DNA of 64,000 nt from Celeribacter indicus (GTDB taxonomy: Bacteria > Pseudomonadota > Alphaproteobacteria > Rhodobacterales > Rhodobacteraceae), in assembly GCF_000819565.1 (NCBI RefSeq), contig NZ_CP004393.1, forward strand, positions 1,736,001 through 1,800,000. Reading direction: 5' to 3'. The stretch's first letter is position 1, and every line of letters begins with the position of its first letter. Of this stretch, positions 3,636 to 58,293 are shown one piece after another. A model generated the notes under the pieces. It did no database searches, had not been told where the DNA came from, and saw only the letters and a list, made by a program, of their open reading frames with translations. The position numbers and the translations under genes are program-made.

Positions 3636-5675
3636 CTAGCGTGGCTGCCGCCGGAAGATCCGCAACGGCCGGTGGGTCGCGAGGCGCGATGCCTTCATCA
3701 GGTTGGAGGTCGGGCGGCGCGGCGGGGCGGTGACGCGGCGCAGGATGTCCATGGCCGCGATCGTCAGGGCGAGGCGCGAGGGCGCGGCGAGGTAGAGCGT
3801 TTCCCAGCGCGGATCGAAGGCCGCCTTGAACCGGCGCAGCCCGGCGGCGCCGGATCGCCTGAGGAAGATCGCGCGCAGCCGGCGCAGGAGCGGATTGGCA
3901 TCGGTGCCCTGCCAGGGCACGGCGGCGAGGGAAAGGCGCGGGCAGGACTGGCGCGCGGCGGCCCCGATCGCGGCGACGATGAGCGCCTGCACGGTGCCGT
4001 CGGGGGCGGCGCGGCCGGTGCGCATCAGGTCGAGCGTCATCTCGCTGCGGGTCTCGTGCAGGGTGACGAAGCCGACGAGATCCGGGCCGAGGAAGGCGAG
4101 GAAGATCCGCTGGCAGGAGACATAGGCGCGCTCGTAGGTGCCCATGGAAAAGCCGCGCTCCCGGCCGCGCAGGCCGCGCCATTCGGCGGCGACGCGATCC
4201 ATCTCCGCGAGCGGCAGCGGGTGCGGCGCCTCGCGGACGGTCAGGCCGGCGGCGGCGGCCTTGCCGAGGAGCCGGCGCAGTTGCCGCCGGTTGCTGCCCT
4301 CGAGGCTGAAGGTGCCGGGCACGAGCCAGGCCTCCTCTGCCACGGGCAGCACGCGCCAGCCGGCGCGCCGGGCGCTTGCCGCCATGCGGGCGCCGCATTT
4401 GTAGATCGCGGGCATGCGGTAGCGTTGGGCCGCGGCCCCGCTCAGCGCCCCGCGCGCGGCGGAGGGGCAGGTGCGCGCGACGAGCGGGTCGGAAAGCATC
4501 ACGAGCGATTGCCCGATCGGCGCGACGAGGCCGAGCGGCCTGCCGTTGCGCGCCGTGAGCAGGGAGAAGTCGCGGGTGCGCAGCAGGTTGGCCTCCGCGC
4601 GGGGGGCGGCGAAGAGCTGGCGCTCCATCTCCGCCGGCAGGCGCGGCGAGGGCGGGGCCTTCACGAGGCGCGGGGCGCGCGACAGGTTGCAGCGGCGCGG
4701 CCCGCGCAGCAGCAGCAGGCCGCAGAGCAGGGCGGGCAGCAGGTAATAGACGAGGCGGAAGGCGAGGACAGCGCCGATCAGCGTCTCGATGTCGACCGAG
4801 GGCAGGAGGGCGGCGAAGGCCGCCTCGAACGGGCCGAAGCCGCCGGGCGTCGCGCCGACGAGCCCCGCCCCGAGGGAGAAGAGGTAGGCGGAGATCACCT
4901 GTCCCGCCGCCAGGGCGAGATCCTGCGGCAGCAGCGCATAGAGCGCGAGGGCGGCGCAGAGGGTGTCGAGCGCGGTGAGCCCGACGACGGTCGCGATGGT
5001 GCGCAGCGACGGCCAGGGCAGGCGCACGAGCGGTCCCGGCGGGTAGACGGACAGGGCGGTGAGCGTCCCGGCCAGCAGGATCGCGCCGGTCGCGAGCGGC
5101 ATCATCCAGGGGTGGTCGGGGCGGAAGATCAGGACGGCGAGGGCCGCGACGACGGCCCAGCCGGCGAGGAAGGAGAGGGCGACCGCGGCGGAGAGCCGCG
5201 CGGCCTGCCACAGCGTCAGTTCCGGCAGCATGCGCCAGCGCACCAGCGTGCCGGTGAGCGCGCCGAAGCCGAGCACCTGGGACAGGGCGATGGCGATCAC
5301 GCCGGTGCGCCGCGCCGCGCCGGCGGCGATCCCGGTGCCGAGCTGGGCGTGGAGCACGCGGTCGTAATGCCCGACCGCCCAGAAGGAGCCGGCGGTCGCC
5401 AGGAGCGCGAGCACCCATTGCGCCGGGCGCAGCGTGGCGATCGTCGCGCCCACGGCCGCCATGTCGAGATGCGCGGCCTTCTCCCCCACCAGCCAGACCA
5501 CGATCAGGGTGAGCCCGAGGGGCAGCGCCTGCTTGCCGAGGAGCGCGCGCAGCCGCGCCCGGTCGGTCTGCCGCGGCGGGTCCTCCGGCGGCAGGGGGCG
5601 GTTCGCGCCGGTCTCCTCCGGCCCGCCGTCGGGCAGGGGGAGCGCGGTCTCGATGTCGAAAGCGCCGTGACGCAT
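3636..5675 (-). CDS. mprF: MprF-like phosphatidylglycerol lysyltransferase/flippase
   Basis: 679 aa from the ATG at 5675, preceded by an AAGGAG Shine-Dalgarno at suitable spacing; upstream ATGs at 5750 and 5858 lack one. The N-terminal half (about 45-330) is a run of hydrophobic helices corresponding to the flippase module. The C-terminal half (about 345-679) resembles the DUF2156/GNAT-like aminoacyl-transferase domain that moves lysine (or another amino acid) from aminoacyl-tRNA to phosphatidylglycerol. The family lowers membrane negative charge and confers cationic-peptide resistance. It is shorter than Gram-positive MprF (about 840 aa) by several N-terminal helices. It appears monocistronic. 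Confidence 0.82.
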   Translation of the reverse strand: MRHGAFDIETALPLPDGGPEETGANRPLPPEDPPRQTDRARLRALLGKQALPLGLTLIVVWLVGEKAAHLDMAAVGATIATLRPAQWVLALLATAGSFWAVGHYDRVLHAQLGTGIAAGAARRTGVIAIALSQVLGFGALTGTLVRWRMLPELTLWQAARLSAAVALSFLAGWAVVAALAVLIFRPDHPWMMPLATGAILLAGTLTALSVYPPGPLVRLPWPSLRTIATVVGLTALDTLCAALALYALLPQDLALAAGQVISAYLFSLGAGLVGATPGGFGPFEAAFAALLPSVDIETLIGAVLAFRLVYYLLPALLCGLLLLRGPRRCNLSRAPRLVKAPPSPRLPAEMERQLFAAPRAEANLLRTRDFSLLTARNGRPLGLVAPIGQSLVMLSDPLVARTCPSAARGALSGAAAQRYRMPAIYKCGARMAASARRAGWRVLPVAEEAWLVPGTFSLEGSNRRQLRRLLGKAAAAGLTVREAPHPLPLAEMDRVAAEWRGLRGRERGFSMGTYERAYVSCQRIFLAFLGPDLVGFVTLHETRSEMTLDLMRTGRAAPDGTVQALIVAAIGAAARQSCPRLSLAAVPWQGTDANPLLRRLRAIFLRRSGAAGLRRFKAAFDPRWETLYLAAPSRLALTIAAMDILRRVTAPPRRPTSNLMKASRLATHRPLRIFRRQPR

Positions 5676-26199: not shown

Positions 26200-26289
26200 G
26201 GAGAGGTGGCCGAGTGGTCGAAGGCGCACGCCTGGAAAGTGTGTAGGCGGGGAACCGTCTCGAGGGTTCGAATCCCTTCCTCTCCGCCA
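26200..26289 (+). tRNA. tRNA-Ser (anticodon GGA)
   Basis: 90 nt with encoded CCA. The 7-bp acceptor stem is 26200-26206 with 26279-26285. The D arm, an anticodon stem CACGC/GTGTG around a CTGGAAA loop (anticodon GGA), a long variable arm typical of serine tRNAs and a T arm with GGTTCGAATCCC are all present. It reads UCC/UCU codons. The ICE abuts its 3' end. Confidence 0.97.
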
Positions 26290-47386: not shown

Positions 47387-47594
47387 TCGCCAGCCCCGCT
47401 AGCGAACAGATTGGGCAGCTTCTGCTATTTTGCCGAAGGCTGTCGCGCCATCACAGCACGGGAAACGTGTCGCACCGTTTTGTTTCTCGTCACTCTATGT
47501 TCCGCGACGTCGTCCGTGGAAGTTTTTACCTACCGGCTCAATCCCCTCTGCCGGCCCAACTGCCACGACACCGATCCGCCTTGCACGACGCCCA

Positions 47595-49583
47595 TCACCT
47601 CGCGGCCGATCTGCCGGTCAATGAGCGGCCGCCACGGGACAAGGGTGAACTCGTGGCTCTTTTCGACCACGGCGAACTTGCCGCTGGATAGTTGCACGGT
47701 GCCGGTGAACTTGCCGCTGACGTCTCGCCGTCAGTGGCTGCGCGGAACGCCAGCCCCTTGCTCTCCACCATCTCCGCACCAACGCGGGCAACCTCCCGTT
47801 CGCGCAGGGTGGCGAGAAGGCTGCGCCGGTAGAATACGCGGCCGTCGCGTGCGCGGGTAGCGTCGCGCTGTTCGATGTGGTGCTCGCGGCGCTGGTCCAT
47901 GGCTTCGCGCACCTCCTGACCGAAACCCGCCGACGCAAGGTCGGCGGTCTCGCCGTGGATCATCCGGCGGTCCAGCCAAGTCACGCCGTCTGCGCCGATC
48001 TGGTTTTCCAGATCGAAGGCCGACAGGACGCGAACGCTAGCCCGCCGGGTGCGGCGGGCATCATAGGCGGCGGCACGGCTCTCGAAGTCCTCGGAGATGC
48101 GCCATTGGTCGGCGTCGATCCGCTCCGCGATCCCGGCCCGGCGCAGCGCCTCCAGCCGGCGGACATGGGCATCGACATAGCCCTCGTAGTCGCCGCCCGG
48201 AACGCGGCCCTCGAACTTCGCCTGCTCCAGATGCCGGCTCGGCCGGTAAATGCCATCCTCGGCGATTGTCGCAATGGTGCGGTCGGACGGCCGGGCCGTC
48301 GCCTCGGCACGTCCGATCTCGATGACGCTGCCGATCCGGGCGTCCTCCAACTGCATGGGGTCGATATTGGCGATGTGGTGCGTGCGCCCGTCGATCCCGT
48401 CCACGACCACGGTGAGATTGTCGCCCAGCTCGTTGGCGAGATATTTGTCGAGGACGCGGCCGGTGACAGGCGTTGCGGGTGCGCCCTCATGGATGCGGAA
48501 GGTCATGGGATCGCGCTCAAGCCCATCGGCGGCGAGCGATCTTTGCATGGTGCGGATGATGTCGCCGCGCTCGCCCAGCTCGCGCAGGGTCGGTTCCAGC
48601 CGCTCGTTCAATTCCCAGACACCGGGGGCATGTTCGGTGGCGAGGCCCATCCGCCCCAGCTTGGAAAGCCGACGCAGGCGAAGCGTGCGCTCGAACTGCC
48701 GCTTCGGCTCTCCGGGTTCATGGCGCAGGTCAAGGAACCGCCCATCGGCTTCCTCGACCATCGCCCGGTCGATGCGGGTGAAACGGTCCTGATCTATCTC
48801 GGCGGTGAGCTTACGGGTTTGCTCGATCTCGCTGACATGACCGAGTTCCAGCGTCGCCAACTCGCAGGCCCGCTCGCGGATACCATGAACGATGTAATCG
48901 CCGTTGATGACCAGATCCTCCCCCAGATCGTCCTTGCCGCGGAGGATGACATGCACATGGGGATGGCCGGTATTGTAGTGATTGACCGCCACCCAATCGA
49001 GTCGGGTGCCGAGGTCGGCTTCCATCCGGCCCATGAGGTCGCGAGTATAGGTCGTGAGGTCCGACAGCTCTGCCCCGTCCTCGGGGGAGACGATGAACCG
49101 GAACTGGTGACGGTCGTCCTGGCCGCGTTCAAGGAAGGCGTCACCATCGGCTCGGTCTTCGGTGCCCGAGTAGAGCTGGCCGCGCTCGCCGTCACGCGAG
49201 GTGCCGTCGCGCTGGATATAGCGCAGATGAGATTGCGCCTTCCGGCCCTTTCCAGGGTGGAGGATGTAGCGCTGCTGCACCATGACGCGCCGCGCGCCCG
49301 GCTGGCGGTGGCTCCAGCCGCCGCCGAGATTGCGGGTGCGGACGAAGACCGCGCCGCGCCCGCGCTTCACGCCCTTGCCGCTCGACAGGACAACTTGGGA
49401 ACCGGCTGGCGTTGCTGGGGTGAACGCCGCCGTTCCGAAACCGACGCGGGGTGAGGTGCGGCGCTGCTGCCGGGCGAGTTTCTTCGCCTGCGTCAGAAAG
49501 CTCTTGGCCTTGCCCGCGCGTGGCGCATCGGAGCGGATACGGCCGGGCCTTGGCCGGAAGCGGTTTTCGTCATCGGCGCTCAT
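47595..49583 (-). CDS. Relaxase (VirD2-like, DUF3363), frameshifted C-terminus
   Basis: 662 aa as read. The HUH metal-binding motif is NTGHPHVHVILRGKDDLG (about residue 204). The DUF3363 part covers the second half. The last ~45 residues after AATDGETSAAS do not resemble the family. In another frame the expected ending (VSGKFTGTVQLSSGKFAVVE onward to GRQRGLSR) continues and stops at 47530. A 1-nt change near 47720-47728 thus shifts the frame; catalytic parts are untouched. The enzyme nicks oriT and leads the strand into the recipient. Confidence 0.88.
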   Translation of the reverse strand: MSADDENRFRPRPGRIRSDAPRAGKAKSFLTQAKKLARQQRRTSPRVGFGTAAFTPATPAGSQVVLSSGKGVKRGRGAVFVRTRNLGGGWSHRQPGARRVMVQQRYILHPGKGRKAQSHLRYIQRDGTSRDGERGQLYSGTEDRADGDAFLERGQDDRHQFRFIVSPEDGAELSDLTTYTRDLMGRMEADLGTRLDWVAVNHYNTGHPHVHVILRGKDDLGEDLVINGDYIVHGIRERACELATLELGHVSEIEQTRKLTAEIDQDRFTRIDRAMVEEADGRFLDLRHEPGEPKRQFERTLRLRRLSKLGRMGLATEHAPGVWELNERLEPTLRELGERGDIIRTMQRSLAADGLERDPMTFRIHEGAPATPVTGRVLDKYLANELGDNLTVVVDGIDGRTHHIANIDPMQLEDARIGSVIEIGRAEATARPSDRTIATIAEDGIYRPSRHLEQAKFEGRVPGGDYEGYVDAHVRRLEALRRAGIAERIDADQWRISEDFESRAAAYDARRTRRASVRVLSAFDLENQIGADGVTWLDRRMIHGETADLASAGFGQEVREAMDQRREHHIEQRDATRARDGRVFYRRSLLATLREREVARVGAEMVESKGLAFRAATDGETSAASSPAPCNYPAASSPWSKRATSSPLSRGGRSLTGRSAAR

Positions 49584-49896
49584 GGATGCGCCTCCGGCCG
49601 AAATCGCGGAAAATCGGGCAATCGGCGGCCATAGTGCCGAACGAAACCCCGCAAAGCCAAGACGTTACACGAAGTCGCGGCACTCCGCCGCCCGAAACCT
49701 TGGTGCCGGAAACGGTCGCCTAACCAGTGTGCAGACAACAACAATTTCCAAAACTGGCCCGTCATGGTGCCATGTTCTTCAATCTTGCCCTCCCTTCTTA
49801 CCGCCCTTTCCGTCCTTCCCGCTGGGATTCCAGACGGGCGCAAACCTGCCTGACTGGACACCGGAACGGATCGCGCCGTGCGCTGGATCGCCGTCC
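49584..49896. other. Gene-free region upstream of the relaxase, candidate oriT
   Basis: About 310 bp, lower in GC than its neighbours, with a 10-bp ATGGTGCCAT palindrome near 49770 and a pyrimidine tract near 49790-49820. In ICEMlSymR7A-like elements oriT lies upstream of the relaxase gene. No nic consensus can be called by eye. Confidence 0.35.
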
Positions 49897-50805
49897 TCAT
49901 GGCGTTCCCTCGTCGTCGGCGCGGGCCACGAAAATGCTGCCGGTTTCCGGCTCCGCATCGACGGGACCGCGCACCGGAACGGTTGCGCGGCCGTCGCCGG
50001 ATTGCGCCCCGGATGGCGGCGCGGCGACAATCGGCGCGTCGGCCGGGCGCGTGACGAAGAGCGGGGCTTCGCGCCAGTCGGGCGGTGGCGGCGTTGTATC
50101 GGGAGATGCCTCGCCGCCGAGGATCGGCGCAAGCGCGGCGACATAAGCCCGCGTCTCCGGTGGCAACGCGCGGCCGGTCGCAAGGTATTCATCGTAGCGA
50201 CCGGGACCGGCGTTATAGGCCGCCAGCATCGCCGCGACATTGCCGTAGCGGTCGAACATCTCGCGCAGATAGGCCGTGCCTGCGAGGATGTTATCGCGCA
50301 GGTCGTAGGGATCGCGGCCGAGCCGATGACGGATGCGCAGGCCCGCCCAAGTGTCGGGCATTACCTGCATCAACCCCATCGCGCCGGCTGATGACACCGC
50401 GCGCACGTCGCCCGCGCTTTCGGCGCGCAACACGGCGACAATCCAGTGCTCGGGAATTCCGAAGCGCCGCGCCGCTTCGGCAATGTGGGGGGCGTGGGGA
50501 TCGACGGCGGACTGAACGGCCGGCGTCGTTTGCGCGATCGCGAAACCAGATGCGCCGCCGAACGACAGAACACCGGTCAATATCAGAACGGCATAGTGCC
50601 ATACCGCCCTGTCTCCGCCACGACGCCAGCCTGCCAGCGTGCTCGCTGCGGTCAAGGGCAAGGCGCAAGCGCCGGCCGATGGCCGCCCTTGACCTTCGGT
50701 GCGCGCGCCGGCCGTCTTGCGCCTGAGCGGGACGGCGGGATGAGACGGCTTTTCCGCGAACAACGGGATGAGGGTTTTGAGCGCGGGGATGACGCGGGAT
50801 CGCAT
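49897..50805 (-). CDS. Conjugation-associated lytic transglycosylase
   Basis: 302 aa. A membrane-anchoring helix around 72-90 precedes an SLT domain (FGIPEHWIVAVLRAESAGD, the Glu being catalytic, then AMGLMQVMPDTW and AAYNAGPGRYDEYL). It opens peptidoglycan for the mating channel (VirB1 role). The C-terminal 80 residues are Pro-rich. It starts 4 bp after the DUF736 gene ends. Confidence 0.88.
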   Translation of the reverse strand: MRSRVIPALKTLIPLFAEKPSHPAVPLRRKTAGARTEGQGRPSAGACALPLTAASTLAGWRRGGDRAVWHYAVLILTGVLSFGGASGFAIAQTTPAVQSAVDPHAPHIAEAARRFGIPEHWIVAVLRAESAGDVRAVSSAGAMGLMQVMPDTWAGLRIRHRLGRDPYDLRDNILAGTAYLREMFDRYGNVAAMLAAYNAGPGRYDEYLATGRALPPETRAYVAALAPILGGEASPDTTPPPPDWREAPLFVTRPADAPIVAAPPSGAQSGDGRATVPVRGPVDAEPETGSIFVARADDEGTP

Positions 50806-50809
50806 GGCC

Positions 50810-51154
50810 TTAGTCCCGCTCGTCGCGCGGTTTCGGACGGTTCCAGTGCAGCGACCACGACGCCTTGTCGTCACCATTCTGGAAGAGATTGGCGCGGATC
50901 GGATGCGGGAATGTGGGATCGTCGAGCAGCACGGAAAGGTATTCGCCGGCCTTCTCGCCGGTGCGTTTCCAGGCTGCGCCGACCTCCGGGCCGGTTTCGT
51001 CGCTCATGCCGTCGAAGAGGTGAACACGGTAATCCGGCGCGTTCTCCGCGTCTGACGGGTTTGCGACGATGATGATGTCCTGATGCAGCAAGAGCGTCCC
51101 GAGGTGTCCGATGAAGCCGGCCTCGTCGCGCGTGAAGTCACCAATCTGGGGCAT
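50810..51154 (-). CDS. DUF736 family protein
   Basis: 114 aa. MPQIGDFTRDEAGFIGHLGT and the closing SWSLHWNRPKP are DUF736 hallmarks; a second DUF736 gene lies at 60964-61284. The family is widespread on conjugative elements, and its function is not established. AAGGAG precedes the ATG. Confidence 0.88.
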   Translation of the reverse strand: MPQIGDFTRDEAGFIGHLGTLLLHQDIIIVANPSDAENAPDYRVHLFDGMSDETGPEVGAAWKRTGEKAGEYLSVLLDDPTFPHPIRANLFQNGDDKASWSLHWNRPKPRDERD

Positions 51155-51221
51155 GACAGTCTCCTTGGCGGTGAGGTTGAAAAACCATCGGCGGGCACCG
51201 CTCCCGCCGATGGGGAAGCGG

Positions 51222-51767
51222 TCATTGGATCGGCGCGCGCCATTCGTAGCGGCCGTCGCCTTCCTCGTCGGTCCAGAGCGGCATCGCCCGGCCGATGACG
51301 GAACTTGCGGGGATGGGTCCGAAATAACGGCCGTCGAGACTGTCGCGGACCTCCCAGTTCATCAGGAAGAGTTCGCCGTCGCCGATGGTCCGGCAGCCCT
51401 GCCAGACGGGCAGATCGCGGCCGATCCCGTCGCGGTCGAGCGCCTCGCCCATCTCGATCCCGTCCACCGTGATCGTGGATCGCAAACGGCAAACCCGCTG
51501 TCCCGGTAGTCCGAGGACGCGCTTCAGGAGCGGCACGCCGCGCCTGACATAGCCGCGTTCGACCATGAATCGCTCCAGCGGTTCGGGCGGCATGACGGCG
51601 ACCAGCTCCGGCACGTCGAGCGCGTCGGCCGGCCCGACCGTGTAGAAGCCGATGGGCGCGCTGGCCGTGGCGTTCCAGATCAGTTTCGTCGGAAGATCGG
51701 CGGCGCTGGCGGCTGCGATGCCGGTGACGGCCAGCGCCGTTACCGCGAGGATACGGCGGCGCGTCAC
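51222..51767 (-). CDS. traF: Conjugative transfer signal peptidase TraF
   Basis: 181 aa. S26-type peptidase with the Ser nucleophile in NATASAPIGFYTV and the Lys base in VPLLKRVLGLPGQRVC, plus an N-terminal export helix. RP4 TraF cyclises the TrbC pilin; the trb operon here encodes TrbC. Overlaps the DUF2840 gene (ATGA at 51764-51767). Confidence 0.92.
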   Translation of the reverse strand: MTRRRILAVTALAVTGIAAASAADLPTKLIWNATASAPIGFYTVGPADALDVPELVAVMPPEPLERFMVERGYVRRGVPLLKRVLGLPGQRVCRLRSTITVDGIEMGEALDRDGIGRDLPVWQGCRTIGDGELFLMNWEVRDSLDGRYFGPIPASSVIGRAMPLWTDEEGDGRYEWRAPIQ

Positions 51768-52282
51768 GGGTCAATCCTCTGGCGGCCGAGCCAGGCGGCG
51801 TGTCGCTCCGGCGTATAGGCGTGCGGCTCCAGACCGGCAGTCAGACGGTTGTGGACATGCCGCCAGTGCTCCGGGGATATGTCGGCCGGATCGAGGCCGA
51901 GCGCTTCCACGGCGTCAATAGCCTGCAAGGCGCGCTGCACCTTCGCCCAGCTATCGAGACGCAACAGGATGTCGCCGCCGGGACGGACGAAGGGCAGCGT
52001 CTGGAACGGTTCGCCGCGGCCGATGGCGCGCACGATGTCGATGCGGGAAAGGGTCGTGCCATGCTCGCCGGACGCCCATCGGACAAAGGCGAAGATGCTG
52101 CCCGGCGCGAAGCCGACGATGCTGCGGCGGCGGTCGAGGATCTGTTCGTAGCTCTTGCGGCCGAAGCGTATCCAGTGCTCGACCTTGCGCTTCTGGAAGG
52201 TCAGTTCGACCAATGTGGTGAAAGGCGCCGGTCCGTCCGGCAGCGGACGGCCGTGCAAGCGGTGGGCCGCATTGCCGGTCAT
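51764..52282 (-). CDS. DUF2840 family protein
   Basis: 172 aa from the ATG at 52282. LVELTFQKRKVEHWIRFGRK and PERHAAWLGRQRI are typical of DUF2840 proteins, known only from ICE/plasmid transfer regions between parA and traF. Coupled by ATGA on both sides; function unknown. Confidence 0.85.
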   Translation of the reverse strand: MTGNAAHRLHGRPLPDGPAPFTTLVELTFQKRKVEHWIRFGRKSYEQILDRRRSIVGFAPGSIFAFVRWASGEHGTTLSRIDIVRAIGRGEPFQTLPFVRPGGDILLRLDSWAKVQRALQAIDAVEALGLDPADISPEHWRHVHNRLTAGLEPHAYTPERHAAWLGRQRIDP

Positions 52283-52533
52283 GGTTGATCTCCCTCGGAG
52301 GATGGAAATTCGCGCGCCAGCAGATCGCGCAGCATGTCGGTGACGGTGATGCCGCGCCGGAAGGCCGCGACCTTGATGCGGCCGCGCAGCTCGGGCGTGA
52401 TGTCGATGGTCAGGCGGGCGGTGAACGCCTCGCCGGCGGGCTTGCCTCCCGGCGGCGTTTCGGCCGCCCTGATCCAACTCTCGGGATTGCCCGGCCGGGA
52501 TGCGAAACCGGGCTTGCGGGTGCGCCCGGTCAT
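52279..52533 (-). CDS. Ribbon-helix-helix partition partner
   Basis: 84 aa. A basic, unstructured start and a C-terminal ribbon-helix-helix (FTARLTIDITPELRGRIKVA...GITVTDMLRDLL). It overlaps parA by ATGA, so it is likely the ParG-like centromere-binding partner of the ParA ATPase (inference from position). Confidence 0.75.
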   Translation of the reverse strand: MTGRTRKPGFASRPGNPESWIRAAETPPGGKPAGEAFTARLTIDITPELRGRIKVAAFRRGITVTDMLRDLLAREFPSSEGDQP

Positions 52534-53183
52534 GGCGCGGCCCTCCCGATGTGCAGCCGGTCGATCTCGGCGGCCAGCGCCGCGATCTCGCGCGCGGCGG
52601 GGCTGTCGTCGTCGATCTCGGATGCAAGCCGGCCGGACTGCGCGGCGTCGGCGAAGACGACGCGCTGGCCGATGGTGGCTGCGAGCAAGGGCGGGTCATG
52701 GTCAGCCAACGTCTCGGCCGTCTCGCGGGCGATGATGGTGCGCGCGCTGCAGCGGTTGAGGACGAAGCGGGCGGCCAGCACGGGTCGGTAGATGCGCGCC
52801 TCCCTGAGAAGCGCCAGCATCTCGGCCGAGGCCCAGCCATCGAAGGGCGATGGCTGTACCGGGATCAGCACGAGGTCGGCGGCGAGCAGTGCCGAGCGCA
52901 TGAGGCTGGCGACACGCGGCGGCCCGTCGATGACGATCATGTCGGCATCGCGGGCCAGCTCCGGGGCTTCCCGGTGCAGCGTGTCGCGGGCCAGGCCGAT
53001 AGTGCTGAACAGCCTCGGCAACCCCTCATGGCTGCGCCGCTGCGACCAGTCGAGCGCGGAGCCTTGTGGATCGGCGTCGATCAGGACGACACGCTGTCCT
53101 TGCGCCGCCCAGGCTCCGGCGAGATGCAGCGCCAGCGTGGTTTTGCCGACGCCGCCTTTCTGATTGAGGAACGCGACGATCAT
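52530..53183 (-). CDS. parA: ParA-family partition ATPase
   Basis: 217 aa. Deviant Walker A FLNQKGGVGKTTLALHLAG at the start and IDADPQGSALDWSQ follow the ParA pattern without an N-terminal HTH (type Ib). It helps keep the element after excision or replication. Coupled to repA upstream by ATGA. Confidence 0.93.
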   Translation of the reverse strand: MIVAFLNQKGGVGKTTLALHLAGAWAAQGQRVVLIDADPQGSALDWSQRRSHEGLPRLFSTIGLARDTLHREAPELARDADMIVIDGPPRVASLMRSALLAADLVLIPVQPSPFDGWASAEMLALLREARIYRPVLAARFVLNRCSARTIIARETAETLADHDPPLLAATIGQRVVFADAAQSGRLASEIDDDSPAAREIAALAAEIDRLHIGRAAP

Positions 53184-54220
53184 GGCGCACCTCGGCGGCT
53201 AAAATCAGCACTGGCACCGGCGCCACGGGTCGCGCGTGCGCGCTTCAAAGAAGAAGAGTTAGATTCTTTGTTAGAGTCTTCTATAGAGTCCGGCGCGCGA
53301 TTTGCGCCTAATGTCCCGATACTGCGTGCGCCTAATGTCCCGATGGGATTCACAGGCGTTTCCACAGGCACTGTGGATAGATTTTCAGGGACGAAGCGCA
53401 GCAGTTCGCACCCGTCTTCCCATTCGATCTGGAGGCGATAGCCGGGCAGCGACTGGCGGGTGGTGAGGCGGCGCAGGTCGAGGGCGAAATCGGAAGGCCG
53501 CGCCGCGCTGCCGGACTTCCGGTGCAGGTGGGAAATCTCGAACGCCCAGCCCTCGGGCTGGCGTCCGGCGTGCTTGCGGGCGACGCGATACAGCCACCGC
53601 TCAATGCCGCCGGTCAGCCGGAAATAGGCCGGGTCGATGGTCAGCACCAGCGAGCGGTCGATGACGCTGTTGTAGAACCATTCGGGCAGGACGAACTCCA
53701 TGCCCTCGACGCGCCCGGTGCGCGTCGTCATTTCCTCCCACTCGTTGATCCATGAGAATTGCCGTCGCCGCCAATGCTTGCCGTTGCGGATCGTCGTAGC
53801 GATGACGGTAGATTGCAGGCGGGCGAGCGCGGCCTTGAGCAACAGGTAATCCCGGTTGCCGGTGGCCCGCCCCACAGCGCGCAGGACCTGGTAAGGCATG
53901 AAGCGGAAGAAGCGCGACGTGGCGAAACCGCTGTTTTCGGCCGCGACGATCTGGCTTGCAGCCCAGATCAGCAGATCGGCATCCCAGATCGTCGCCATGC
54001 CGTGTTCGGGCATGGCGAATACCTGCACCTCTACATCAGCGGCCCGGTAGAGGATCGGTTTTGTGCGGGGCCGCTTCGCCAATGAGAAGAACGGCCGTTC
54101 CATCAGATCGCGCTGGTCGCGCGGGGCAGCGTCGCCGGTCGCGACCACAAAGGGGTCGAGGCGGCTGCGCTCGCTGGTGTCGGTCGGCTGCGCGGGGCTG
54201 TCATCGTCGTCGCGCAGCAT
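53180..54220 (-). CDS. repA: Replication initiator protein A (RepA)
   Basis: 346 aa. ERPFFSLAKRPRTKPILYRA and the following winged-helix regions match plasmid RPA initiators; related ICEs carry the same gene and may replicate transiently. Near the C-terminus a 17-bp direct repeat (53304-53320, 53328-53344; 24-bp period) encodes IGTLGA twice and looks iteron-like. It follows the AlpA-like gene with no gap. Confidence 0.9.
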   Translation of the reverse strand: MLRDDDDSPAQPTDTSERSRLDPFVVATGDAAPRDQRDLMERPFFSLAKRPRTKPILYRAADVEVQVFAMPEHGMATIWDADLLIWAASQIVAAENSGFATSRFFRFMPYQVLRAVGRATGNRDYLLLKAALARLQSTVIATTIRNGKHWRRRQFSWINEWEEMTTRTGRVEGMEFVLPEWFYNSVIDRSLVLTIDPAYFRLTGGIERWLYRVARKHAGRQPEGWAFEISHLHRKSGSAARPSDFALDLRRLTTRQSLPGYRLQIEWEDGCELLRFVPENLSTVPVETPVNPIGTLGARSIGTLGANRAPDSIEDSNKESNSSSLKRARATRGAGASADFSRRGAP

Positions 54221-54493
54221 TCAGCACTCGTCCCGCTCTTCGGGGGTGAGCGGGCGCGCGGCAAAGACGGTGCCGGCGCTTGTGTCGCTGGTGGATTTGC
54301 GCGTGCCGATGGCGCTCCAGTCTTCCAGATCGCGCAGGGTATAGAGGACACGGCCGCCGATCTTTCGATAGAGCGGGCCGGTTCCGTAGGTGCGGTGCTT
54401 TTCAAGGGTGCGGATCGAAATGCCGAGGAAGCGTGCGGCTTCCTTTGTGCGCAGAAGGCGCGGCGGCAGGTCCGCATTGCGGCGGTTCGCCAT
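54221..54493 (-). CDS. rdfS: AlpA-like HTH protein, likely recombination directionality factor RdfS
   Basis: 90 aa. An excisionase/MerR-like HTH (LLRTKEAARFLGISIRTLEKHRTYGTGPLYRKIGG) followed by a short tail. In ICEMlSymR7A the equivalent gene, first in the same rdfS-repA-parA-traF order, is the excisionase RdfS, activated by FseA. The name is assigned by synteny. Upstream lie the shared leader repeat and a structured RNA-like segment. Confidence 0.8.
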   Translation of the reverse strand: MANRRNADLPPRLLRTKEAARFLGISIRTLEKHRTYGTGPLYRKIGGRVLYTLRDLEDWSAIGTRKSTSDTSAGTVFAARPLTPEERDEC

Positions 54494-54549
54494 GGATTAC
54501 CTCCGGTTCGTCAGCGGATGGCGCTGCCGATGACGGCGGCGCGCTATGG

Positions 54550-54619
54550 CGAACCATGGCGAGGGACCGGCGGCCTGTAGCGTGCCGCATTTGGGCACGC
54601 GCGCTGGCGGCACCCCCCT
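54550..54619 (-). repeat. Shared leader repeat, copy upstream of rdfS
   Basis: Partner of 28681-28750, with the identical 26-bp core at 54568-54593. The core ends 75 nt before the rdfS-like start. It carries the same GTGCCGC/GCGGCAC inverted repeat. Confidence 0.75.
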
Positions 54620-54724
54620 CCGGGGCGGGATCAGACTGAAAAGATGGAGAGATTCAGCGTGACAGCGGGGATCGTGCCAATTCGGCGAAGACAATCCGGT
54701 GTGGGTCGGTTAAGACTGAACGCG

Positions 54725-54888
54725 GAGCAGACGCGCTGCTCTGGGGCTTAGTAACCCCTCACGAATGGCTGGTGCTGGCCATGACGGCACCGCACTCCTT
54801 GACCTTATGGTCGGGGAGCCCGTGGCGCATGTCCAGGGCTGCCCGCCTAAAGGCCACGGGGCCGTTTCGTGACGGTTACTAACTCCCC
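54725..54888 (+). ncRNA. Putative structured RNA between rdfS and qseM
   Basis: Successive stems can be drawn. A 6-bp hairpin 54725-54741. A long closing stem P1: 54743-54746/54885-54888, 54748-54756/54874-54882 and 54759-54765/54866-54872. Inside it are a short P2 (54766-54769/54778-54781), a 10-bp P3 with a UUAU loop (54795-54804/54809-54818, two G-U pairs) and an 8-bp P4 (54819-54826/54853-54860). The G-U pairs in P3 become C-A mismatches on the other strand, favouring a plus-strand RNA. It may be a qseM leader or a free RNA; kinship with the known int-alpA RNA motif should be considered. Confidence 0.65.
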
Positions 54889-54962
54889 GATCACCAGGTC
54901 AGAGGGGCCAATTGCGGGGGCGCACCGCAAGCCGCGGCTCTTCCGGTAGAAGGGGAATGACG

Positions 54963-55244
54963 ATGCGAACGCCCGTCGAACTCGATCCCGATGTGGACGA
55001 TGAAGCGCCAGCGGGAAACGACATCACGCCCTACGACGAAGCGCATTTCGTGACCTATCTGCGGCTGCTCGACGCGAAGGCGGAAGGCGCGGACTGGAAG
55101 GAAGTGGCGCAAATCGTGCTGCACCGCGATCCGGTCGGCGACGAGTTCAGGACACGCCGATGCTGGCAAAGCCATCTCGAACGCGCGCAATGGCTTTCGC
55201 GTGAGGGTTACAAGCGGATACTGGAACAGGCCGCCGCAAATTAA
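54963..55244 (+). CDS. qseM: Small DUF2285 protein, likely antiactivator QseM
   Basis: 93 aa. Its core AHFVTYLRLLDAKAEGADWKEVAQIVLHRDP and SHLERAQWLSREGYKRIL resembles DUF2285-type sequences. ICEMlSymR7A QseM is a short DUF2285 protein that binds FseA (and TraR) and blocks transfer. Here it stands divergent to the rdfS-like gene, as expected for that role. Start 54963 has GGGG 7 bp before it; ATG 54957 is possible. A qseC-like HTH partner was not found; the IS3 element begins 167 bp downstream. Confidence 0.7.
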   Translation: MRTPVELDPDVDDEAPAGNDITPYDEAHFVTYLRLLDAKAEGADWKEVAQIVLHRDPVGDEFRTRRCWQSHLERAQWLSREGYKRILEQAAAN

Positions 55245-55450
55245 GGTGTGAAAAGTATTCTGGTCGGTATGCGGGCTCGAAGCCGTTCAACATGCCCGCG
55301 ACAGCGCCGGGCTCAGGTCTAGTCGGGTAACTACCGACGTTCGCTGTGGCCGCTTCCAAGTTCGGGTCTGCGGGACAGAGTGTGAATTCGCTGCGGTTGC
55401 GCCAATGGCGGTGAACCGCTCCGGGTTTGCCGGAGGCTGTTTGGTTTAAG

Positions 55451-56350
55451 TTATGCGGCTATGGTCTTAGTTACCAGAGCTGCGTAGAAGTTTGCCTCTG
55501 CTTCCGCTGGTGGGATGTTCCCGATGGGCTCGAGGAGGCGGCGATTGTTGAACCAGTCGACCCATTCCAGAGTGGCGTATTCCACGGCGTCCAGACTGCG
55601 CCACGGGCCACGGCGGTGGATGACCTCCGCCTTGAAGAGACCATTGATTGTCTCGGCCAAAGCGTTGTCATAGCTGTCACCGACGCTGCCGACCGAGGGT
55701 TCGATTCCTGCCTCGGCCAAGCGTTCGGTGTATTTTATCGCCAGGTATTGCGATCCGCGGTCTGAGTGATGGATCAGTCCCACACCAGGCTGCCGCTGAT
55801 GAACAGCCTGTTCCAAAGCGTCGAGAACGAAGCCTGTGTGAGCCGTGCGGCTGACGCGCCACCCAACGATCCGGCGCGCGAACGTGTCGATCACGAATGC
55901 CACATAAACGAACCCTTGCCAGGTGGCGACATAGGTGAAATCGCTGACCCAGAGCATGTTCGGTGCCGGCACCCGGAATTGCCGGTTTACCTTGTCCATC
56001 GGGCACGGCTGCTTCTTGTCAGGGATCGTCGTTTTATGCGGCTTGCCCCGGATGACGCCCTGCAGGCCCAAATCCTTCATCAACCGGGCTATCGTGCATC
56101 GGGCCACATCAAATCCTTCCCGCCGCATCTGGCGCCAGACTTTGCGCACGCCATAGACCTTGTAATTCTCATCGAACACGCGCTCGATCTCGGGGCGAAG
56201 CTCGTCGTCGCGCTTGAACCGATCCGAGCGCAGATCAGGGTCGGCCCGTTTGGCCAGATGATCGTAGTATGTGGACGGGGCAATCGGCAGGTGCTTGCAG
56301 ATCGGCTCGACCCCGAGCTCTCCACGATAATCGTCGATAAAGGCGATCAT
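55451..56350 (-). CDS. IS3-family transposase OrfB (DDE integrase)
   Basis: 299 aa. An HTH_21-type start and rve domain: the catalytic acidic residues are in [23 protein letters not shown] and [12 protein letters not shown]. Usually made as an OrfAB fusion by -1 frameshifting; orfA and orfB overlap at 56347-56350, with an A/T-rich slip-prone run nearby. Confidence 0.95.
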
Positions 56351-56673
56351 GACTTCGGTCGGCGGTCGAGCTCCGCCATCGCAAAATACGCCGACGCCTT
56401 CCGCAGGATCTCATTCGCCTGCTTGAGTTCGCGGTTCTCGCGCTCCAGCGCCTTCATCTTCTCGGCCATCTCGGTACTGACCCCAGCACGGTCGCCACGA
56501 TCAATCTCTGCCTTTTTGACCCAGTCATTCAGCGTGTTCGTCGAACAGCCTATCTTCGCCGAGATCGATACGATCGCTTGCCAGCGGCTCTCATGCTGAC
56601 CGGCGTTGTCCAAAACCATACGAACCGCTCGCTCGCGCACTTCAGGGGAATATTTGTTCGTTGTCTTGCTCAT
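56347..56673 (-). CDS. IS3-family OrfA
   Basis: 108 aa. A helix-turn-helix ([19 protein letters not shown]) and a C-terminal leucine zipper ([21 protein letters not shown]) mark IS3 OrfA, which binds the inverted repeats and dimerises. Confidence 0.93.
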
Positions 56674-56783
56674 GATGCTCCATCCTACTCAAGAGTTGGA
56701 GCCTCCGGCAAACCCGGAGCGGTTCAGCGGCTCTGCACACTTGACTTAGGAGTCAAGCGGGCCACCCAAGCGATCAGAACTTA

Positions 56784-57983
56784 CTAGCATTGTGATGGAT
56801 CGGCTGCCCTCCTAATCGCTTCCGCATTATTTACTACCGAAGATACTGAGTTCTGAACGACCCAACTTGGACACAAGAAATCCGTCCACATGCGGCACAT
56901 CATATGCTCCCCAATAATGAAGTAAGCTTCTTTGTCGTCCGCGAACAAATTCGAAAAATGAATTTGGCACTGAATGTCATTTTCGTCTGCCTCGACGGAC
57001 AGCCTTGTGCCCTCAAGTGCCAAATTATCCTCAAAGGCCGCCATGTCGAGAAATGTGAAGATGTGAATTTTCCCCTTAACAAATCCTTCATAATGCGCGG
57101 GCTCTGAAAGAGTTAAAGGATACGGGTAATAACAACCCCAAATCTTGTTGGTTTTGATCTGATTGACAGCATTCACCAGAACCCTTGATGAACCAAAGCC
57201 ACTGAAGAGCACATCGTAGTCTGGGGTATCCTCTATAATGACGACAACCTTCAGGCACCCATCAACCTCAAAGCTCGTGGAGCCAACCCCGCTTGCTTGT
57301 TGGATGGCCGCTTGTAGTTGTCCAGAGTATGATTTTGGAGGAACTGCAAACTCCGCCCTGAAAGTTGTACCTGGAAGACCTCGAAAACCATCACTGCGAT
57401 CCAGCGCAAGAAATGTAAAAAGAGATTTTAACTTCTGTTTTTGGCGTTTGCTTCGGCTGTCTTTCGTCGTGGATGATTTAACCTCAATAGGAACAGGATC
57501 ACTGTCTCCCAACAGGCAAATATCGCCGTAGCGCAGCACGTTTGTGATGTCACATAGTACGGCTGGAATCTTATGCGAGATAGCAGTTTCCAAAAGAGAT
57601 ACCTCTGCAGCGGCGCCGGCCTTGTCTATGATGAAACCACCAGATTGCTTGGGGTTCACAGTATCCACATCGAAAAAGGTCTGCTTCAATGCAAACCTGT
57701 CCACGTAGAGAAACGCCAAGCAATCCCCAAGGCACAGAAAATTGTATCGGACGTATTGCCATTCCCGAGGATCCCCATTGTCTCTCTTGGCTCCTCTAAT
57801 TTCCCTTTCTGCCTCCGAAATCGCATCAATTAACCGCCTCTGAATCTCAAGAAGTCGTGAGAGGTTGTCCAAGTCCTGAGATAACCCGTGAACCTCGCGA
57901 TGAATTTCGAATAGCTTGGGATAGAGACGGTTCTCAGCGGGAGGATCAAAACTGTCAGGCGCTGCATAGGGTGTTTGTCGCAT
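56784..57983 (-). CDS. Low-GC hypothetical protein with possible PD-(D/E)XK nuclease motif
   Basis: 399 aa, not recognised. GC content is visibly lower than that of all neighbours, suggesting a distinct origin. An N-terminal helical part with a heptad-like LDNLSRLLEIQRRLIDAISEAE stretch precedes NVLRYGDICLLGDSDPVPIEVKS (about 145-170), whose D...E-x-K spacing fits the active site of PD-(D/E)XK nucleases. A Lys/Arg-rich loop follows. Solitary cargo genes of this type are often phage-defence or restriction-like, but no partner gene or motor domain is present, so this is only a possibility. Confidence 0.5.
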   Translation of the reverse strand: MRQTPYAAPDSFDPPAENRLYPKLFEIHREVHGLSQDLDNLSRLLEIQRRLIDAISEAEREIRGAKRDNGDPREWQYVRYNFLCLGDCLAFLYVDRFALKQTFFDVDTVNPKQSGGFIIDKAGAAAEVSLLETAISHKIPAVLCDITNVLRYGDICLLGDSDPVPIEVKSSTTKDSRSKRQKQKLKSLFTFLALDRSDGFRGLPGTTFRAEFAVPPKSYSGQLQAAIQQASGVGSTSFEVDGCLKVVVIIEDTPDYDVLFSGFGSSRVLVNAVNQIKTNKIWGCYYPYPLTLSEPAHYEGFVKGKIHIFTFLDMAAFEDNLALEGTRLSVEADENDIQCQIHFSNLFADDKEAYFIIGEHMMCRMWTDFLCPSWVVQNSVSSVVNNAEAIRRAADPSQC

Positions 57984-58197
57984 TGGAAACCTTCACAACG
58001 GCGGAGGCACATCGTCCAGCCTCATTCTGTCGCTCAAAAATTTTTCGATATCCTTCTTGAGTGTATAGAGACTGGCACAGTATTTCCACCTCGCGCATAG
58101 CCGCCATTCGTGCCTACTGCAGCATCCGTGACTAAGGGCCCGAAGGAGCCATTTGCCGCGCATCGCGTGAAGGTCGGCAATTGTTGCCGCTACCGAT

Positions 58198-58293
58198 CAG
58201 ATCGCGCTGACGGCATGATACCTTACTTTGTTTGAACTTTGATGGCAGATCGCGCTGACGGCATGATACCTTACTTTGTTTGAACTTTGATGG
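58198..58293. repeat. Perfect 48-bp tandem duplication
   Basis: 58198-58245 and 58246-58293 are identical. The right copy contains the last codons of the DUF2285 gene and its stop; the left copy lies just downstream of that stop. Either recent slippage or a regulatory duplication; an assembly error is also possible. Confidence 0.9.

Follow-up and report, generated by a model that had tools for sequence, protein, structure and literature searches.

What occupies the 469-bp gap between an excisionase-like gene and a qseM-like gene of Celeribacter indicus, and does it bear on the control of the latter? We addressed this question in a window of 64,000 nucleotides (contig NZ_CP004393.1, positions 1,736,001 to 1,800,000), whose own numbering is used throughout. 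The excisionase (RdfS)-like HTH gene lies on the minus strand (54221..54493, with its ATG at 54493; HTH_17, E 3.5e-8), and the qseM-like gene, of the DUF2285/RovC_DNA-bd type, on the plus strand (54963..55244; PF10074, E 1.6e-7 for the protein scanned from 54957). The gap runs from 54494 to 54962, the likely qseM start being 54963. A sequence-only reading had described it as gene-free and had placed in it a candidate structured RNA that might be a leader regulating qseM; indeed, no convincing gene was seen in 54494-54962 among ORFs of at least 50 aa. The Shine-Dalgarno (SD) sequence of qseM, GGGGA (54952..54956, plus strand), is a 5-nt complement of 54884-54888, within the candidate RNA. A pattern search recognized no sigma-70 promoter at this copy.

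The genome carries the RNA element in two identical copies, along with one at 75% identity. A second related region, at 2.26-2.30 Mb of the same contig, is 99.1% identical over window positions 47535-55233; the other matching stretches listed are about 88-97% identical. Positions 55234-58286, that is, about 3 kb after qseM, are missing from that region. They include a transposase pair (55451-56673) that we take to be of the IS3 type from an ALIL frameshift pseudoknot matched by Rfam at 56276-56392 on the minus strand. Elsewhere in the window, an Rfam tRNA match was obtained at 26200-26286 (plus strand, 56.7 bits).

Fold, strand and parts of the RNA

The 164 nt at 54725-54888 folded at -91.3 kcal/mol (z -5.7), a stability equalled by 0/200 shuffles, and a comparison region, 54740-54896, gave a z of -6.1. 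The minus strand of the 164 nt folded nearly as well (z -5.4 vs -5.7), so that single-sequence folding did not decide the strand. Homologues did. We compared 68 of them (alignment A3), drawn from 97 trimmed sequences out of 111 non-redundant ones, near-duplicates, badly trimmed and partial sequences having been left out by hand. Over the nine helices counted, G-U pairs outnumbered A-C combinations by 395 cells to 52 (the small stem P5b, left out of this count, shows the opposite trend, with 8 vs 26), and a covariance model, R1, scored the window element at 160.9 bits on the plus strand vs 21.4 bits on the minus strand. Both results indicate an RNA read towards qseM, the orientation that had been deduced earlier from two G-U pairs.

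The pairing itself covaries, a check that the sequence-only reading had itself named: 89.9% of 3356 cells were paired, 37 of the 50 pairs showed changes on both sides, and the covariation score was 0.413, vs 0.185 in shuffles (0/500) and 0.07-0.10 when the alignment was slid. From these comparisons, 54725-54896 is almost certainly a structured RNA of the plus strand. The fold is pseudoknotted, with interlocked helices (P1 loop with P7, S2 with the P6 loop, and P3 with P3'). The closing stem of about 20 pairs first described is thereby corrected, not being a single simple stem. In the homologues, the outer GGGG of this stem is paired with a CCCC close by (P1), the P1 loop taking part in P7; the inner part (P2) is formed by the loop of another hairpin, P6, which pairs back. 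Where the GGGG is absent (6/68 homologues), P1 still has 22 of its 24 pairs, against 17 of 23 for the nested closing stem.

All parts of the element lie on the plus strand. It opens with an optional 5' hairpin, P0 (GAGCAGACGCGCTGCTC, 54725..54741), a hairpin at this place being common in homologues as judged by eye. The P1 hairpin follows (GGGG-CTTAGTAA-CCCC, 54743..54758); it is 98.2% paired, with two-sided changes in three of its four pairs. Its loop holds the 5' strand of P7 (54748..54754), which forms seven pairs with 54876-54882, six of them changing on both sides and one invariant; the outermost, 54748-54882, forms in only 22/68 homologues. The hypervariable 5' strand of P2 (S2, 54760..54764) pairs with 54867-54871; P2 is the most variable helix, with two-sided changes in 5/5 pairs and 79.3% of cells paired. 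The H-type pseudoknot P3/P3' spans 54766..54791, where 54766-54770/54777-54781 is interleaved with 54771-54776/54786-54791, and all 11 pairs change on both sides.

The P4 hairpin, CTCCTTGACC-TTAT-GGTCGGGGAG (54795..54818), matches the hairpin reported at the outset, with its ten pairs, two of them U-G, and its UUAU loop; it is 93.9% paired over the nine pairs counted, with mostly one-sided changes. The P5 stem (54819-54826/54853-54860, hence 54819..54860) encloses a conserved internal loop, GYATG(T)CCAGG / CTAAAG, and the inner stem P5b, only 65.2% paired. Beyond it lie the P6 hairpin (CCG-TTTCGTGA-CGG, 54862..54875; 98.5% paired, 3/3 pairs two-sided), whose loop is the 3' strand of P2, and the antisense strand TTACTAACTCCCCGATC (54876..54892). 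The latter comprises the 3' strand of P7 and that of P8, which is of anti-SD type and whose complement is enriched in the downstream regions of relatives. P8, the alternative helix at the 3' end, joins the antisense strand to 54809-54818. P5 is 96.7% paired, with two-sided changes in 8/8 pairs, and P8 is 99.3% paired with little variation, in a set whose loci L038-L157 were taken by an exact pattern inside P8/P5, so that conservation there is partly imposed. P8 and P4 compete for GGTCGGGGAG and are mutually exclusive; given the one-sided changes of P4 and the small variation of P8, the case for their exchange comes mainly from conservation and less from covariation. Further downstream stands the hairpin GCGGGGGCGCACCGC / GCGGGGGCGNACCGC of type A leaders (54914..54928), present within 80 nt in 53/107 loci; in those relatives, the hairpin GCGGGGGCGNACCGC lies between the RNA and the gene.

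Distribution of the family and the genes that follow it

The element proved more widespread than first reported, reaching plasmids, other genomes and other phyla. BLAST found relatives on 317 of 72,556 plasmid records, mostly from Agrobacterium, Rhizobium and Bradyrhizobium, and 214 of the 317 were typed conjugative. R1 matched 45/337 genomes of Alphaproteobacteria, a single genome carrying as many as eight copies. When GTDB contigs were scanned with an exact pattern, at least 120 stretches were returned, and iterated nhmmer recognized the element in 153 of the 158 sources examined; it found no element in three pattern-scan loci (L058, L061 and L105). Among viral contigs with the pattern, the model confirmed 9/10, the tenth (L167) giving no match. 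In addition, nhmmer matched several contigs of Akkermansiaceae (Verrucomicrobia), two MAGs of Acidobacteriaceae and a Rickettsiales MAG with two copies (taxa as binned), together with a Tautonia (Planctomycetes) contig, where the match was partial (68 bits). Three loci (L066:5963-7216, L162:7490-10562 and L036:4999-6206) have a pair of copies separated by about 1 to 3 kb, and in two others (L063:5177-5414 and L153:4743-4986) about 60 nt are inserted within the element.

A search of 4227 Rfam families, of the cmscan type suggested in the sequence-only reading, left the element without a match at threshold, both in the window and in 18 homologous loci. In the literature, judged by titles and abstract openings, we found no paper describing this RNA before traM or qseM, and a term search of the DUF2285 paper PMC10359603 gave nothing. 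We are nearly certain that this is a genuine, widespread structured RNA, some 160 to 190 bases long, for which Rfam holds no full-length family.

Which genes does it precede? We took 24 plasmid records, 22 of them annotated, picked from the listed BLAST matches rather than at random, and scanned chosen downstream proteins with Pfam. A same-strand gene began within 300 bp of the match in 16 of the 22 annotated plasmids, and in six there was none. TraM was recognized by Pfam after the RNA in 7/22 (L028, L033, L243, L244, L245, L247 and L250), a TraM-like protein below the cut-off in one (L009), DUF2285/QseM in one (L006) and HTH regulators in three (L008, L032 and L036; HTH_3 by Pfam in L008 and L036), the remaining four of the 16 having other or unknown genes. 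Four TraM plasmids were searched whole and contained exactly one match each. On the Ti plasmid L028, the sRNA Atu_Ti1 (RF02506) was matched at 4348-4439, on the minus strand, about 1.6 kb upstream of the RNA. RctA was considered for the gene after the copy on R. etli p42d: RctA is a winged-helix protein, and the regulator there is XRE/HTH_3, so we do not call it RctA.

Among the 111 non-redundant loci, a QseM-like gene follows the RNA in 10; elsewhere the gene behind it encodes a membrane protein or a lipoprotein, or is unknown. In L137, L071, L039 and L070, and in L149 and L156, it is followed by small proteins, apparently of the membrane, whose N-termini are similar (MxDYNFWxDLxDTYQS-like or MDQPYSxWAD-like); the one scanned, from L137, matched nothing in Pfam or NCBIfam at E<=0.01. 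Such contexts (traM, HTH, membrane and unknown genes) rule out a link to rdfS-qseM alone. A constant association with QseM is also ruled out: 27/30 QseM-like loci of the window's family lacked the RNA within a flank of about 1.4 kb, the three that had it being the closest (30 of 31 places were used; identity was 34-47% for many of them, which may be other DUF2285 genes). To tie the RNA to the control of excision of a putative ICE, as the sequence-only reading does, is too narrow: most relatives whose neighbours were examined do not lie between rdfS and qseM.

The RNA does recur in TraM/QseM antiactivator circuits, where it precedes both traM and qseM-like genes in the numbers given above. In ICEMlSymR7A, according to an excerpt of the source, qseM is controlled by an adjacently encoded HTH protein, QseC (PMC8627217). 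By contrast, the region upstream of qseM is here occupied by the RNA, and the immediate upstream neighbour is the excisionase-like gene, not qseC.

Relation to C4 and sRNA-Xcc1

A possible relation to the int-alpA motif, which we take to be among the families of Rfam 15, had been raised in the sequence-only reading, and was not supported: at E<=5 the only family to appear at the element was sRNA-Xcc1 (RF02221), and none did at threshold. The sub-threshold sRNA-Xcc1 match covers the whole model (54809..54900, plus strand; 31.2 bits, below the gathering score of 53, E 0.0016 in 521 bases). Three of eight homologous loci gave it as well, at 34.4, 30.7 and 28 bits (E 0.03-0.9 in 51 kb), and in the window's own genome sRNA-Xcc1 had no match at E<=0.001. 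C4 (RF01695) gave no match at gathering in the window, nor at E<=5 in 54480-55000.

We compared architectures, and looked beyond the Rfam match in sRNA-Xcc1 loci. These contain an upstream hairpin and spacer, a terminator-like hairpin with a U run and the sRNA-Xcc1 half, usually with a gene start soon afterwards. The antisense region was complementary over at least 7 nt to its own upstream half in 14/15 loci and to its own downstream leader in 11/15 (15 of 20 loci used; p<=1e-4 each by permutation). The same complementarity was found in C4 loci, with the upstream half in 9/9 and with the downstream leader in 9/9 (9 of 12 loci used). Nine of the 10 proteins scanned after sRNA-Xcc1 had a Pfam match: Bro-N in four (one below the curated cut-off), P22_AR_N in two, KilA-N, Rha and SymE. 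These genes, as predicted from such matches, are of phage antirepressor types, plus a toxin (10 of the 15 loci were scanned; in five cases 94-224 nt separate the match from the frame, and a shorter frame may intervene).

The window element shows features of both families. As in C4, known from phages P1/P7 and their relatives, the hairpin loop and spacer of its upstream half are complementary to two antisense regions (P7 and P2, which covary), and its antisense half is structured; a gene whose SD region might be covered completes the C4 plan, here with a complement of only 5 nt. As in the whole-model alignment of sRNA-Xcc1, its 3' half has an outer P8 stem enclosing the P5 and P6 hairpins, with the P6 loop and the P7 strand. 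There are differences too. In C4, a terminator-like hairpin stands where this RNA has the interlocked pseudoknot and P4, and an antirepressor gene takes the place of the DUF2285 (QseM-like, PF10074) gene; in this RNA, there is no downstream a' copy, and SD pairing would use the P7/P8 strand. sRNA-Xcc1, an 88-nt RNA in the excerpted source (PMC2996969), differs in that the covariation found here runs into the 5' half, as well as in the score below gathering.

Excerpts of the respective sources provide further background. C4 blocks the ant mRNA at its ribosome binding site (PMC12197685), and a motif named c4-a1b1 is listed next to C4 in a table (PMC2864571); we infer from its name that it is the upstream half of C4, which has thus probably been noticed before. 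sRNA-Xcc1 has been observed as a free RNA 88 to about 100 nt long (PMC2996969), lies upstream of symE in Xanthomonas cassettes (PMC12444791) and is integron-encoded and transferred by transposons and plasmids, according to the title of Chen 2011 as cited in PMC12189769. The two families are named together in one paper's table, which, in the portion available, does not relate them.

Applied reciprocally, R1 found two of five sRNA-Xcc1 loci, at 24.6 and 22.7 bits, barely above the wrong-strand score of 21.4, and 0/3 C4 loci. Because this test is weak, we claim a common plan and not common descent. That this family shares the C4-type plan (an upstream half, an antisense half and a gene with an SD that can be covered) appears to us well supported, with a good measure of confidence. 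Judging from sequence comparison, the family, with no Rfam match at threshold, is likely the counterpart in Alphaproteobacteria of the C4 and sRNA-Xcc1 antisense leaders.

Pairing with the Shine-Dalgarno region and possible roles

The 3' strand of the element, NNAACTCCCC, resembles an anti-SD sequence. In 95 of the 111 loci, we searched the downstream region for its complement: 27/95 had one of at least 7 nt, vs 4.4% of 1142 stretches of the same length preceding other ORFs and 5.1% of shuffles, and GGGAGT occurred in 19/95 (110 nt searched) vs 9/1142 (45 nt searched). CTCCCC resembles a ribosomal anti-SD, so that a certain degree of complementarity to SD sequences would arise in any case. In Agrobacterium, two TraM plasmids (one being a Ti plasmid) have a different strand, CTAACCC, matched by GGGTTAG in the leader. 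Of the seven TraM leaders, three show no SD stretch complementary to the strand, and in one more the complement spans only 5 nt; in the window, the complement is limited to the 5-nt GGGGA, and no downstream repeats of the P1 loop or S2, as in C4, were found. Copy-specific a'/b' repeats after the alphaproteobacterial class were likewise not significant in a permutation test of own versus other downstream regions (p 0.074, n 95), a copy-specific test that succeeds for C4 and sRNA-Xcc1.

The leaders of the 95 loci fall into types: 51 have the GCGGGGGCGNACCGC hairpin, as does the window, 13 have a terminator-like hairpin, none has both and 31 have neither. We computed SD accessibility in nested folds of 64 of the 111 homologues (the window and at least L134 being taken with an upstream TTG as start). 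It was 0.249 in the full RNA, 0.189 in the RNA from P8 onward and 0.130 with the antisense strand exposed, higher in the full than in the exposed form in 30 cases and lower in four (Wilcoxon p 9e-7). In the window, where the folds cannot show pseudoknots, the SD of an RNA starting at 54821 pairs with 54884-54888 at a probability of 0.89-0.97. In RNAs starting at 54724, 54740 or 54806, the SD is not captured, and 54953-54956 pair with the coding bases 54986-54989 at about 0.83-0.9; the mean SD unpaired probability is 0.42 in the full RNA, 0.43 from 54806 and 0.30 in the exposed form.

These properties suggest how a C4-type leader could act here. The 3' half (P5, P6 and the strand 54876-54892) would pair either with the 5' half (P7 and P2) and GGTCGGGGAG (P8), or with the SD of the downstream gene. 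In the former state, the qseM SD would be beyond the reach of the antisense strand, the antiactivator would be made and transfer would be off. If both holds were lost, the 5' half being processed away or displaced and GGTCGGGGAG being removed or engaged in P4, the strand would cover the SD and QseM synthesis would fall. Given that the window SD match is only GGGGA, we infer this mechanism for the present copy from the family; transcription of the copy, the direction of control and the trigger of the switch are putative. Note that in the fold from 54806, P8 retains the antisense strand, so that the folds do not predict burial of the SD when only the 5' half is lost, which lowered our confidence: on these models, we consider the chances that the RNA controls qseM translation as a C4-type antisense leader to be about even. 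The earlier suggestion of a leader riboregulator of qseM, or an antisense RNA, comes close to this preferred reading, a C4-type antisense leader that would control qseM.

Other explanations account for part of the data. An aptamer or protein-binding leader, in which the P4/P8 exchange would control the downstream gene and the likeness to C4 would be convergent, is suggested by the competition between these helices, by the highly conserved internal loop GYATG..CCAGG / CTAAAG (conservation at the pattern being partly imposed) and by the same-strand gene close behind the element in 16/22 annotated plasmids. We nevertheless find it unlikely: the downstream genes seem too diverse for one metabolite, and the topology and upstream-half pairing are common to C4 and sRNA-Xcc1. 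If the element were instead a free sRNA acting in trans, its position before qseM would be incidental. The detection of sRNA-Xcc1 as a free RNA fits this idea, as does the terminator-like hairpin straight after the element in 13/95 loci vs 7/475 shuffles; yet the other leader types, 51 and 31 of the 95, lack a terminator, none was found by pattern in the window copy, and the RNA is sited repeatedly before TraM and QseM, which makes this idea, in our estimate, slightly less probable again.

The conjugative typing of 214/317 plasmid records could also point to a structured single-stranded DNA site used in replication or transfer. The excess of G-U over A-C (395 vs 52), the strand bias of the R1 scores (160.9 vs 21.4 bits) and the existence of multi-copy genomes make such a site highly improbable. 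Multiple copies and a patchy distribution would likewise suit a chance or mobile, MITE-like palindrome devoid of function, to which we give hardly any weight in view of the conserved core, the pairing kept in 89.9% of cells and the two-sided changes in 37/50 pairs.

If the C4-type antisense plan does operate here, its meaning may extend beyond this locus. TraM (PF09228) and QseM (PF10074) have the same task although they come from distinct Pfam families, and members of each are preceded by this RNA. We put forward, as a speculation that is rather less probable than not, that C4-type RNAs are a general decision module of mobile DNA and not confined to phages: in conjugative plasmids and ICEs, they would set the level of the quorum-sensing antiactivator, and the variable P2 and P7 helices would be specificity codes, so that co-resident elements would be insulated from one another, or immune to transfer, by means of RNA. 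With members of both antiactivator families preceded by the RNA, the C4 and sRNA-Xcc1 entries of Rfam would become one larger architecture, testable with simple reporters, and an RNA layer would be added to a much-studied quorum-sensing transfer circuit, linking a phage immunity RNA to the control of conjugation.
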